The notes beneath the pieces were generated by a model. The model was given only the letters and a program-made list of their open reading frames with translations. It was not told the origin of the DNA and did not search any database. The translations under genes and the position numbers were made by a program. From Aureibaculum sp. 2308TA14-22 (GTDB lineage: Bacteria; Bacteroidota; Bacteroidia; Flavobacteriales; Flavobacteriaceae), in contig NZ_JBEWXT010000001.1 of the NCBI RefSeq assembly GCF_040538665.1, positions 1,700,501 to 1,764,500 of the forward strand: a DNA stretch of 64,000 nt, written 5' to 3'. This document shows positions 34,449 through 39,154 of this stretch, one piece after another (position 1 is the first letter of the stretch; every line of letters starts with the position of its first letter).

Positions 34449-34802
34449 ATGAAAAAATTAAAATTAATTACCCTATCATTTGCTTTATTAGTTGGATCTA
34501 TATCTTTTGCTTCTAATGTTGAACCAGACACAAAATCAGAAATAAGAAGTCAGATTATAAGCTTATTAAATAAAAACAAAACCAAAATTAGTATTGATTC
34601 AGATGAATTAGAAGCCAATGTTTCATTCATGTTAAATGAAAAATCTGAGCTAGTCATCATTTCAGTTAGATCAAAAAATGATGAAACTAACAATGCAATA
34701 ATAGATGGCTATATTAAAAAGCGTTTAAATTATAAAAAAGTGAAAGTAAATAAGTTAAGAGTAGGCAAAGTATATGAAATGCCCTTCAAAATTGTAAAAT
34801 AA
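34449..34802 (+). CDS. Small secreted hypothetical protein
   Basis: A 117-residue protein with a signal peptide (MKKLKLITLSFALLVGSISFAS). The mature part is short and charged, with alternating hydrophobic residues (ELEANVSFMLNEKSELVIIS) suggestive of one beta-alpha-beta unit. Proteins of this size and pattern are common and uncharacterised in Flavobacteriaceae. It has its own 236-base upstream region and a bidirectional terminator downstream, so it is monocistronic. No function is proposed. Confidence 0.75.
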   Translation: MKKLKLITLSFALLVGSISFASNVEPDTKSEIRSQIISLLNKNKTKISIDSDELEANVSFMLNEKSELVIISVRSKNDETNNAIIDGYIKKRLNYKKVKVNKLRVGKVYEMPFKIVK

Positions 34803-34817
34803 CAATTGCTATTCCCA

Positions 34818-34852
34818 AAAAAGAGGTTGCTAAAAATTAGCAACCTTTTTTT
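34818..34852. terminator. Bidirectional intrinsic terminator
   Basis: GGTTGCTAA (34825-34833) pairs perfectly with TTAGCAACC (34837-34845). Seven T residues follow on the plus strand and an A-run precedes, so it can end both the secreted-protein gene and the convergent thioredoxin gene. Confidence 0.9.
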
Positions 34853-36556: not shown

Positions 36557-36582
36557 TTATAAAATGTTAGCCAGCTAACATT
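36557..36582 (-). terminator. Weak hairpin at the end of the Crp/Fnr gene
   Basis: AATGTTAGC and GCTAACATT form a perfect 9-bp stem with a 2-base loop, overlapping the stop codon region; only a short TTTTAT follows on the minus strand. Confidence 0.5.
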
Positions 36583-37255
36583 AGGCAACTTTTTTTAAAA
36601 TTCTTATTTCTTTTCTATGAAAACTTAAGAATTTTTCATTTTTTAATTCATTAAGAATAATATTAAGCGTAGGTCTTGAAGTGCCAATTAACGAAGCAAT
36701 ATCTTTTTGTGTATAGGGGTGATGAATAACTTTATCTCCAGTAGTTTCACAATCATATCCATAATCTTCGCAAAGCTCGTCTAAAAACTCTAATAGCCTA
36801 GTTTTAGTATCTTTAAACAGCAATAATTGAATTCTACGCTCTAATTTCTTTACACGAAAACCAATAAACTTATAAATTTTAAGACTAACTGATATGTTAT
36901 CCCTCATTAATTCGAAGAGCGTATCTTTTGATACTGGACAAATAGAAGTAGTATTATCAATAGACTGTGCAAATTCATTTCTTTTATCATCTCCTAAAAT
37001 AGCTTTTTCTCCAAAAATTTCTCCTCTGGTTAAAATAGCACTGATAATTTCTTCTCCATCTTCGGTATAATGACCAATTTTAACCTTTCCTTTATCAATT
37101 AGATAAATTTTATTGGCTGAGTCTTCCTCAAAATAAATATAATCGCTTTTTTTATATGTACTTAGTTTATGATCTTTAGTATATGCAGGATATTTATGCG
37201 GACATAAAATTTTAAAGAGGTTTACATCATCAAAAAACCAAACATTAGTATTCAT
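36581..37255 (-). CDS. Crp/Fnr family transcriptional regulator
   Basis: A 224-residue regulator with an N-terminal cyclic-nucleotide-binding-like beta-roll (residues about 35-130, including GEIFGEKAILGDDKR) and a C-terminal winged helix-turn-helix (YTQKDIASLIGTSRPTLNIILNEL). No cysteine cluster for an Fe-S centre of the Fnr type is present at the N-terminus, so oxygen sensing by that route is unlikely. The effector is unknown. The downstream lipoprotein gene on the same strand is separated by 130 bases and a hairpin, so it may be a target or merely a neighbour. Confidence 0.9.
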   Translation of the reverse strand: MNTNVWFFDDVNLFKILCPHKYPAYTKDHKLSTYKKSDYIYFEEDSANKIYLIDKGKVKIGHYTEDGEEIISAILTRGEIFGEKAILGDDKRNEFAQSIDNTTSICPVSKDTLFELMRDNISVSLKIYKFIGFRVKKLERRIQLLLFKDTKTRLLEFLDELCEDYGYDCETTGDKVIHHPYTQKDIASLIGTSRPTLNIILNELKNEKFLSFHRKEIRILKKVA

Positions 37256-37321
37256 AATTATAGTATTCTTTCGACGGATTTTTAGTCGCTAAGAAGTAAT
37301 ATTTCTTACAAAGAAAATAAA

Positions 37322-37640
37322 AAAAGTAGACCATAAGCCGGATTCTGTAATTCAGTTTTGCTGAAACCCTTATCATTTATCTACATTATACATTACTGTA
37401 TAACTTTAGCTGTTCACCCCTTGGAATTGGACGCGTAACCCTTACCCTTTCGGGACTCCAATATACGTAACATTGCATCTCATAGAGTTTACCTGATTTC
37501 ACTACAGCCTAACTGTACTTGCTTTCTGTTGCACTTGTCCTCGGTTTGCACCGGACGGATGTTATCCGCTATGATACGCTACGATGTCCGGACTTTCCTC
37601 CTCCGAATATTCGAAGGCGATAAGGTAGCCTACTTTGTTG
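37322..37640 (-). ncRNA. rnpB: RNase P RNA
   Basis: The catalytic RNA of RNase P, bacterial type A-like. On the minus strand the conserved core is clear: GAGGAAAGTCCGGAC near the 5' end (CR-I), then GTGAAATCAGGTAAAC-type sequences, ACGCGTCC and GGGTGAACAG, and the 3' signature ACAGAATCCGGCTTATGGTC. The terminal stem pairs AAAGTAGGC at the 5' end with GTCTACTTT at the 3' end, followed by a T-run that ends transcription. The ends are approximate to a few bases. Confidence 0.96.
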
Positions 37641-37648: not shown

Positions 37649-37667
37649 GAGTTAAAAATATTGTTTT

Positions 37668-37749
37668 AAAAAAAATCCCACTCCTTAATTAAAAAGAGTG
37701 GGAAAATTGCTATGAAAAAGAAATATTACTGAACTATTGCTCAGCAATA
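37668..37749 (-). ncRNA. Candidate small RNA, copy 2 (rnpB side)
   Basis: Read on the minus strand, a TATATTTG promoter box is followed by a 5' hairpin (TATTGCT/AGCAATA), a pyrimidine-rich linker, and a GC-rich hairpin CCCACTC/GAGTGGG followed by eight T residues. The same architecture recurs at 37875-37950. A 29-base block (37695-37723) is identical in both copies, whereas the 5' hairpins differ in sequence but keep base pairing. No coding frame of use exists. It is predicted as a transcribed, structured small RNA; its function and family are unknown. Confidence 0.6.
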
Positions 37750-37757
37750 CAAATATA
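37750..37757 (-). promoter_or_regulatory. Promoter -7 box of candidate small RNA copy 2
   Basis: Exact TATATTTG on the minus strand, immediately before the 5' hairpin of copy 2. Confidence 0.5.
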
Positions 37758-37874
37758 ATAACGCAATCTGTATTTTTTTATTGCAGAACCTAAACAATTA
37801 TTTAGAATACTTCTAAACGAATAAACAACTAATTGTTAATCAGAACTTTAAAAATTGTTAAAAAAAGATATTTA

Positions 37875-37950
37875 TAAAAAAACCCACTCTAAATTAGAGT
37901 GGGAAAATTGCTATGAAAAAGAAAAAGTGTTGAATTTTATAATTCAACAG
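37875..37950 (-). ncRNA. Candidate small RNA, copy 1 (dnaJ side)
   Basis: On the minus strand TATATTTG (37953-37960) precedes a perfect 5' hairpin (GTTGAATT/AATTCAAC), the shared linker block at 37896-37924, and a terminator hairpin CCCACTCTAA/TTAGAGTGGG with seven T residues. The dnaJ terminator at 37974-38016 isolates it from upstream transcription. Together with copy 2 it forms a tandem pair about 195 bases apart, upstream of rnpB. This looks like a duplicated small-RNA gene rather than a terminator repeat, because promoter, linker and terminator are all conserved. Confidence 0.6.
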
Positions 37951-37952
37951 CA

Positions 37953-37960
37953 CAAATATA
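37953..37960 (-). promoter_or_regulatory. Promoter -7 box of candidate small RNA copy 1
   Basis: Exact TATATTTG on the minus strand, located between the dnaJ terminator and the 5' hairpin of copy 1. Confidence 0.5.
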
Positions 37961-37973
37961 TAAATTATATTAA

Positions 37974-38016
37974 TAAAAACCGTTAAATTTTATCAAATAA
38001 ATAAATTTACGGTTTC
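37974..38016 (-). terminator. Intrinsic terminator of grpE-dnaJ
   Basis: AAACCGT-AAATTT pairs with AAATTT-ACGGTTT around an AT-rich loop, with one bulged base, followed on the minus strand by a T-run. It starts 8 bases after the dnaJ stop. Confidence 0.65.
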
Positions 38017-38023
38017 TTAACTA

Positions 38024-39154
38024 TCAAGAAAACATATCCTTAACCTTTTCAAAAAATGATTTATCAGAGTTTGTAGGAATCGGAGCAAAATGTTCGTCAT
38101 CTTTCATTGTTTCAAAAAACGCTTTTTGGTCTTTAGATAGACTTTTGGGTGTCCAAACGTTTACATGAATTAATAAATCGCCTTTACCGTATCCTTCCAA
38201 ACTTGGTAATCCTTTACCTCGTAAACGTAATATTTTACCAGACTGCGTACCTGCTTCAATTTTAATTCTGACCTTGCCTGTTAAAGTATCAATTTCTTTA
38301 CTTTCCCCTAAAACAGCTTCAGGAATACTTATATACATATCATAATGCAAATTATTTCCTTCGCGTTTTAACTTGTCATGCGGAATTTCTTGAATAACCA
38401 CAAGTAAGTCTCCAGAAACGCTATTACCTGGTGCTTCGTTACCTTTTCCTGATACTTTTAATTGTACACCATCAACAACACCTGGTGGAATTTTAATAGA
38501 AACACTTTCTTCTTTTTCCACTAAACCTTGTGCATTAGAACCGCTTGGCCTACTATCAATCATTTCACCGGCACCTTGGCAGGTGGGACAAGTAGTAGCA
38601 GTCTGCATTCTTCCTAAAATAGTATTGGTAACTCTAGTAACCTGACCCTGGCCATTGCATGTATTACAGGTTTTATAAGTAACTCCTTTGGCTTTAACCA
38701 AACGTTTTACTTTTACCTTTTTCTCAACACCATTAACAATTTCTTCTAATGTTAATTTTACACGAATTCTGAGATTACTACCTTTTACTCTAGTTCCGCC
38801 TCTACTTCTACCGCCACCGCCAAAACCTGAAAATCCACCACCGCCACCAAAAGCACCTCCAAAAATATCGCCAAATTGGCTAAAGATATCTTCCATATTC
38901 ATACCGCCACCACCAAAACCACCTTGACCGCCTTCAAAAGCAGAATGCCCAAATTGATCATAACGAGCTTTTTTATCGGGATTACCTAAAATTTCATAAG
39001 CTTCAGCAGCTTTTTTAAAGTTTTCCTCAGCAGTTTTATCATCCGGATTTTTATCAGGATGATATTTAATAGCCATCTTACGATATGCTTTTTTTATTTC
39101 AGCACTTGATGCACTTTTATCTACACCTAGTATTTTGTAATAATCTTCTTTCAT
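38024..39154 (-). CDS. dnaJ: Molecular chaperone DnaJ, reduced zinc domain
   Basis: Hsp40 co-chaperone that stimulates DnaK. The J domain (residues 1-70) contains HPDKNPDD. A Gly/Phe-rich region follows (residues about 75-120). The central zinc domain has only two CxxCxGxG motifs, CNTCNGQG and CPTCQGAG, instead of four, so only one zinc centre can form; the same reduction is common in Flavobacteriaceae. The C-terminal substrate-binding domains are complete. Length is 376. It is the second gene of a grpE-dnaJ operon, with a 9-base gap. Confidence 0.96.
   Translation of the reverse strand: MKEDYYKILGVDKSASSAEIKKAYRKMAIKYHPDKNPDDKTAEENFKKAAEAYEILGNPDKKARYDQFGHSAFEGGQGGFGGGGMNMEDIFSQFGDIFGGAFGGGGGFSGFGGGGRSRGGTRVKGSNLRIRVKLTLEEIVNGVEKKVKVKRLVKAKGVTYKTCNTCNGQGQVTRVTNTILGRMQTATTCPTCQGAGEMIDSRPSGSNAQGLVEKEESVSIKIPPGVVDGVQLKVSGKGNEAPGNSVSGDLLVVIQEIPHDKLKREGNNLHYDMYISIPEAVLGESKEIDTLTGKVRIKIEAGTQSGKILRLRGKGLPSLEGYGKGDLLIHVNVWTPKSLSKDQKAFFETMKDDEHFAPIPTNSDKSFFEKVKDMFS

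Follow-up and report, generated by a model that had tools for sequence, protein, structure and literature searches.

What is encoded between dnaJ and rnpB on the minus strand of this part of the Aureibaculum sp. 2308TA14-22 genome? An earlier, sequence-only reading of the window (the whole stretch of 64,000 nucleotides analysed here) had proposed two small-RNA genes, and both sequence and predicted folds bear out the layout it described. Two units, A and B, lie on the minus strand between these genes and share the order TATATTTG box, 5' hairpin, unpaired pyrimidine-rich linker, and terminator stem with T run. Both flanks also agree with that reading. dnaJ (38024..39154, minus strand), the upstream neighbour of unit A that is kept across relatives, is followed by a terminator read from the sequence (hairpin AACCGT...ACGGTT and T run; 37975..38015, minus strand), which lies directly upstream of promoter A and ends 15 nt before its box. 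Downstream of the units is rnpB (37319..37636, minus strand; RNase P RNA class A, RF00010, 194.7 bits), with its own box, TACTTTTG, at 37648-37641. Directly behind rnpB is a CRP/FNR-type regulator gene (window 36581-37255), whose start reads ATAGCT-ATGAA in two related genomes.

The sigma-A-type box of unit A (TATATTTG, 37953..37960) precedes a predicted RNA of about 73 nt (37876..37948). It consists of a 5' hairpin, TGTTGAATT-ATAA-AATTCAACA (37928..37949), an exposed linker and putative seed, CTTTTTCTTTTTCATAGCAATTTT (37904..37927), and a terminator, CCCACTCTA-ATT-TAGAGTGGG with T run (37876..37903), the last placed by both the fold and pair counts. Unit B, the sibling copy, has the same box at 37750..37757 and a predicted RNA of about 78 nt (37668..37745); its fold gives a 5' hairpin, GTATTGCTGAGC-AATA-GTTCAGTAATAT (about 37723..37750, part of which may precede the start site), an exposed linker, TTCTTTTTCATAGCAATTT (37704..37722), and a terminator, TCCCACTCTTT-TTAATT-AAGGAGTGGGA with T run (37668..37703). 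The linker sequence CUUUUUCAUAGCAAUUUU is exposed in both units. In PMC9723704, the flavobacterial sigma-A box TAnnTTTG sits at -12 to -5, which would place the start sites near 37948 (A) and 37745 (B) and give the sizes above; the initial estimates of about 37945 and 37744, and of 75-82 nt, are corrected accordingly.

The 29-base block 37695-37723 is identical to 37896-37924, as first noted, and spans the linker and the beginning of the terminator. Conservation of the entire block holds for these twins; across the family, the constant part is the linker core, and the terminator stem varies outside the Aureibaculum group. The two 5' hairpins differ in sequence. Both had been said to pair perfectly, which is true of unit A (zero mismatches) and is true of unit B only when G-U pairs are counted. 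Compared with 200 dinucleotide shuffles, the fold z-scores are -6.6 (A) and -6.0 (B), and for each unit none of the 200 shuffles folds as well.

The family to which these RNAs belong had not been recognised at first, and it is still unmatched. In Rfam 15, Flavo-1 included, no family reached its gathering score on the units, and only RNase P did so in the window. The same search gave no match at gathering score on 20 orthologous loci or on 18 motif loci, and permissive thresholds returned scattered sub-threshold matches only. Flavo-1 and other Rfam families are likewise short structured Bacteroidota RNAs, but none reaches its gathering score on the units or the 20 orthologous loci. Open-access literature, searched by title and the start of the abstract, yielded no description of this RNA. 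This is apparently an undescribed sRNA family. While the family is new, its kind is known: short sRNAs in which a 5' hairpin is followed by an open seed and then an intrinsic terminator.

To follow the RNA across genomes we used a covariance model, R1. Since a first alignment of 71 units left the 5' stems out of register, R1 was built from 12 long-spacer units, including unit A and leaving out unit B. In the window, R1 scores unit A at 90.8 bits (37876-37951) and unit B at 65.7 bits (37670-37748). Another match, at 34773-34847 (21.6 bits, E 0.034), is a hairpin behind a thioredoxin-like gene and was taken as chance. Within the window's family, Flavobacteriaceae, R1 finds the RNA in 108 of 120 genomes, corresponding to 107 of 119 genera, with 12 genomes lacking a match; 98 genomes have exactly one match and 10 of the 108 have more than one. 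In an order-wide sample of 146 genomes there were matches in 14, all in Flavobacteriaceae, with 112 of the non-matching genomes assumed to represent other families of the order.

Loci were fetched from 20 of the 108 matching genomes, and their flanking genes were recognised by eye. In all 20, the RNA is directly downstream of dnaJ on the same strand, and an ABC-transporter ATPase gene comes next in 18; no rnpB was found at Rfam threshold in the 20 stretches. A correctly placed sigma-A-type box (TAnnTTTG) is present in 19/20, compared to 15/840 control windows, and CUUUUUCAUAGCAA is found in every one. The linker, which the sequence-only reading had described as exposed and conserved, is unpaired in both folds of the window and kept in these 20 model-found orthologues.

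A linker-pattern scan of the collection returned at least 117 stretches. Among the 80 matches listed, record titles name Tenacibaculum, Polaribacter, Lutibacter, Flavicella, Lutimonas, Aureibaculum and unnamed Flavobacteriaceae, and Cryomorphaceae, Flavobacteriales and Bacteroidia each appear in one title. The Cryomorphaceae entry (L149) is either misnamed or counts against strict family limits; as far as found here, the sRNA family is limited to Flavobacteriaceae. An rnpB core is present downstream of a unit in 23 of the 80 listed loci, 97-163 bases from the nearest unit. Within the family, genus g111 (probably Flavobacterium, by inference) stands out, with an R1 match in 1 of 15 genomes. In three of its non-matching genomes only a plain terminator separates dnaJ from the ABC gene, with no unit between them, suggesting that the unit was probably lost there.

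Aureibaculum itself typically carries twins: 15 of 17 genomes have two same-strand units 178-397 bases apart, and the two genomes lacking them (G007 and G013) are 86% and 79% complete. In our reading, unit A would occupy the ancestral site immediately behind dnaJ and be driven by a sigma-A promoter of its own, and unit B would be a duplicate. The window's genome contains a third sibling (L015, about 1000-1060; G000:C1:3304220) behind a MORN-repeat-like gene, with a TACGAC box that resembles that of its relatives in other species.

Are the hairpins under selection as structures? We counted pairs in 90 matches from 74 sources of our choosing (the window and 73 loci). In the 86 distinct sequences, 97.4% of cells are paired, and 350 cells are changed on both sides versus a shuffled mean of 98, in an alignment that was fitted to R1 and therefore leans towards the modelled structure. 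The covariation score is 0.663, compared with 0.198 (sd 0.011) for shuffles and at most 0.144 for slid versions. Counted by pair, 11 show changes on both sides, which is not clearly more than in shuffles (10.2; 186/500 reach 11). Within the 5' stem, both partners vary in all seven pairs.

Under a loose rule, 196 of 221 distinct motif hits fit the order 5' stem, linker, terminator, at least two of which (L018, L032) belong to Aureibaculum tandem elements. When units were chosen by terminator only, a strong 5' stem was present in 94.8% of 135 de-duplicated units versus 23% in shuffles, while among 17 terminator-less motif hits it was present in 11.8% versus 26%. In an unaligned test, a unit's own arms pair at 7/7 and swapped arms at 3.05/7, where the best stem was chosen and only the contrast with shuffles is meaningful. 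The linker is part of the search patterns, so its invariance arises partly by selection of the loci, those found by R1 being less affected. Among 22 units (the 20 orthologues and the window's two) only 4 contain any ATG; closed frames do not exceed 19 codons, and none is common to the set.

Stem sequences vary with pairing kept, and place and box are fixed in the dnaJ-linked copies, which by comparison are structured genes at an orthologous place, bounded by a promoter box and a terminator and having no conserved reading frame. From this comparative evidence we consider it close to certain that the two units are real small-RNA genes, and the proposal of small-RNA genes with a selected structure and a conserved exposed linker is supported by the covariation in 86 distinct sequences, the boxes at 19/20 loci and the matches in 108/120 family genomes. 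The constant same-strand position behind dnaJ would also fit a 3' regulatory element of the dnaJ mRNA, that is, a read-through product with no independent RNA. This is improbable, as the dnaJ terminator precedes unit A in the window, 19/20 loci have their own box, and many siblings with boxes of their own are located in loci picked regardless of dnaJ. We give very little credence to the idea that the units are terminator-like or mobile palindromic repeats (REP/MITE-like) with no RNA function of their own. Tenacibaculum and others do have several copies per genome, some in tandem, and terminators overlap or abut convergent genes. However, all 20 loci, from different genera, are behind dnaJ, the promoter box is at a fixed distance, the unpaired linker is constant, and the hairpin sequence changes freely while pairing is kept, whereas in a mobile repeat the stem sequence should stay the same. 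The homologues at the 20 orthologous loci are not simply terminators devoid of promoter boxes, an outcome that the initial reading had named as contrary to its proposal.

Some lineages have many more copies. One genome of the order-wide sample (G209) has 9 R1 matches, and G066, in the family sample, has 7. When two mismatches are allowed, the linker is found 18 times in Tenacibaculum sp. MAR_2009_124, including 14 exact hits; these are candidate units. Tandem runs reach three copies in L182 and four in L174. The three near-identical tandem units of L182 (1965-2368) adjoin a CRP/FNR-type regulator gene.

The siblings differ in their promoters. Of 129 de-duplicated units, 77 have a sigma-A-type box; ACG(T/A)C precedes the hairpin in 14 of the others, and the remaining 38 lack both. 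Although these 14 units were picked by ACG(T/A)C alone, all have G(T/C)AA(G/T) upstream, at a spacing of 15 nt in 13 units and 14 nt in one; this pair occurs in 0/77 and 0/38 of the other units. The combination, G(T/C)AA(G/T)-N15-ACG(T/A)C, resembles an ECF promoter. In PMC9723704, a Flavobacterium psychrophilum motif whose -10 region contains a CGT box is assigned to an ECF factor, with induction at low nutrient levels. With sigma-A-type and ECF-like classes together, one linker appears to be offered under at least two kinds of control.

If the linker is a seed, do its targets recur across the family? We counted 158 hits of the 13-mer TTGCTATGAAAAA, spread over 60 genomes of which 56 have a match, compared to 42 for the reversed pattern. 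As R1 matches in those 60 genomes number 73, at least about 85 of the 158 hits are outside R1 units. Units overlooked by R1, and the fact that many genes begin with ATGAAAAA, may explain the excess. Of 30 loci read among the matches listed, 14 are units and 16 are non-units, the latter in different genes; half of these 16 (8) have the 13-nt complement at a plausible ATG start. We recognised no conserved mRNA target by exact 14-mer complements, or by exact 13-mer complements in these 30 loci. One candidate, GGAAAAATTGCTATGAAAA, first taken as a target common to 14/20 genomes, was wrong: 14 of its 15 loci (L260-L274) fit the unit architecture with an extra T in the linker, L260 poorly, and L274 does not fit. 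GCT precedes 15 of 460 ATGAA starts; three of these are units and six had been fetched for this motif, leaving six (two of which are one gene in two species) versus 1-3 for letter permutations. This mild excess is suggestive at most as a target signal.

A different pattern is seen within Aureibaculum. The linker 20-mer, allowing two mismatches, occurs 93 times on both strands in 17/17 genomes, compared to once for the reversed pattern, and part of these occurrences are complements in other transcripts. The terminator-less motif hits form sets in which the apparently transcribed strand carries the linker complement. One set consists of tandem noncoding elements at four loci, with TTGCTATGAA in 6 of 14 copies and a diverged stretch in the others. 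We had considered that these elements carry the linker in sense, which is disfavoured by the T runs behind their tail hairpins. In the six copies with the site, 7-8 of 8 nt behind the hairpin are T on the complement strand versus 5-6 on the other; in the eight copies without it the values are 5-7 versus 0-5 in six, and two have no readable tail (3 and 3). Based on this modest difference, the complement strand is taken, with some doubt, to be the transcribed one. Arrays of a noncoding element at L011, L376, L378 and L384 have a spacing of about 350-475 bases and terminator-like tails; in L005 and L018 the gene ahead of the array is small and zinc-ribbon-like, and two array subtypes differ exactly at the stretch complementary to the sRNA linker.

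Another set is a transcript with a sigma-A-like box that runs towards a DoxX-like gene in the window's genome; among aligned members the exact TAnnTTTG is present only in L066, with near-matches elsewhere. Nine genomes have 4, 3, 3, 3, 3, 4, 5, 2 and 1 predicted linker sites in this RNA versus shuffle means of 0.17-0.53 and maxima of 1-3, where the search itself had picked one site in each RNA but not the additional ones (L070 has the picked site only). Predicted energies at the main site are -27 to -31 kcal/mol. The apparently noncoding transcript of the window's genome (L390, G000:C1:117400-120700; L002, about 1390-1720) has four predicted linker sites, is flanked by a divergent lipoprotein-like gene and the convergent DoxX-like gene, and has relatives in other Aureibaculum genomes. 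In the last set, the complement is in the 3' region of a small gene before its terminator in the window's genome, with similar sequence in four others.

The 33 main sites contain 27 substitutions: 16 are A to G and so leave a G-U pair in place, 11 break pairing and none is T to C. The sequences are related, and the pattern leans towards RNA-RNA pairing on the complement strand. A two-site antisense pattern matched 5 of 120 family genomes; the match in the window's genome is of the antisense-bearing class, the other four are candidates, and members of this class were seen in Aureibaculum only. These other apparently noncoding Aureibaculum transcripts with near-perfect linker complements, some of them multi-site, are possible targets or sponges of the sRNA.

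What, then, does the RNA do? Since the target evidence is suggestive at most, we assign a probability of about 0.55 to the reading we hold most likely, that the units form a family of trans-acting base-pairing sRNAs with the linker as seed. The antisense role first proposed for the linker gains partial support from the long complements in other Aureibaculum transcripts, but no conserved mRNA target was found to go with them. The main rival is protein binding, in which the RNA would serve an RNA-binding protein as a structured decoy or platform. The linker would then be a protein-binding motif, and its extra copies in some lineages would titrate the protein. CsrB and RsmZ are the model for such decoys. 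A decoy would account for a U-rich linker that is near-invariant over about 20 nt, yet has no conserved mRNA target, and for the raised copy number in several genomes (more than one R1 match in 10/108, up to 7, and 9 in another). However, it leaves the complement-carrying Aureibaculum transcripts, several of them multi-site, unexplained, and the units read have one motif each, with partly doubled exceptions that include L242 and L246. We therefore regard a decoy as a real but clearly lesser possibility. An invariant linker with no conserved mRNA partner could also mean that the target of the sRNA is one of the conserved cellular RNAs, for example rRNA, tmRNA or tRNA. This seems unlikely, as the five exact 14-mer complements in the window's genome (the search covering exact 14-mers only) are the two units of the window, the third sibling and two other loci.

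With base pairing as the preferred reading, the 5' hairpin and terminator would protect the RNA ends and keep the U-rich linker CUUUUUCAUAGCAAUUUUCCC open, allowing it to pair in trans with RNAs carrying AAUUGCUAUGAAAAA-like sites. One natural class of sites would be translation starts of the form UUGCU-AUG-AAA-AA, where pairing would block initiation. The Aureibaculum transcripts with linker sites might titrate the sRNA or be controlled by it, and in sibling-rich lineages, with some units under an ECF-like promoter, different signals could feed one seed. A bolder version, which we put forward only tentatively and consider doubtful as a whole, is a family-wide, Hfq-free sRNA hub with a near-invariant anti-start-codon seed (the complement of UUGCU-AUG-AAAAA) and lineage-expanded siblings under housekeeping and ECF-type promoters, opposed in Aureibaculum by multi-site antisense sponges.

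LhrC of Listeria, the csRNAs of Streptococcus and Qrr of Vibrio are multi-copy sibling sRNAs with one common seed. In the dnaJ-linked family, too, one genome can encode several short RNAs that have in common a constant, single-stranded, pyrimidine-rich stretch, with a terminator for each and different promoters. No sequence relation to the csRNAs was seen (the Rfam csRNA model scores 19.7 bits on the units versus a gathering score of 57). Unlike those systems, the common copy of this family is tied to dnaJ, genomes with one match predominate (98/108), and the host phylum is generally held to lack Hfq. sRNA regulation in flavobacteria is poorly known, and the dnaJ-linked RNA would offer an entry point for studying how sRNAs work in such a phylum. 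It is matched in 107 of the 119 genera sampled, and its place, box and 20-nt linker are constant in the loci examined; it would rank among the more widely kept regulatory RNAs of the family, and R1 could be used to annotate it at once.

Shine-Dalgarno pairing is rarely used in this host group. It is thus striking that a separate series of tandem elements (L373 at G000:C1:583900-585300, L375, L377, L383 and L385-L387), with a period of about 90-125 bases, carries GGGGAGAAAGGAG ... CTTTTCTCCTT, an extended Shine-Dalgarno-like sequence, and lies near a TACATTTG box at the locus in the window's genome. Another structured flavobacterial RNA for comparison is Rfp18 of F. psychrophilum, described in PMC9723704 as a strongly structured sRNA, conserved in several species, whose predicted pairing region is the third stem-loop. 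Compared by description only, the dnaJ-linked RNAs differ in having two stems and would pair through the open linker, and R1 matches only the single g111 genome among the 15 of the genus taken as Flavobacterium.
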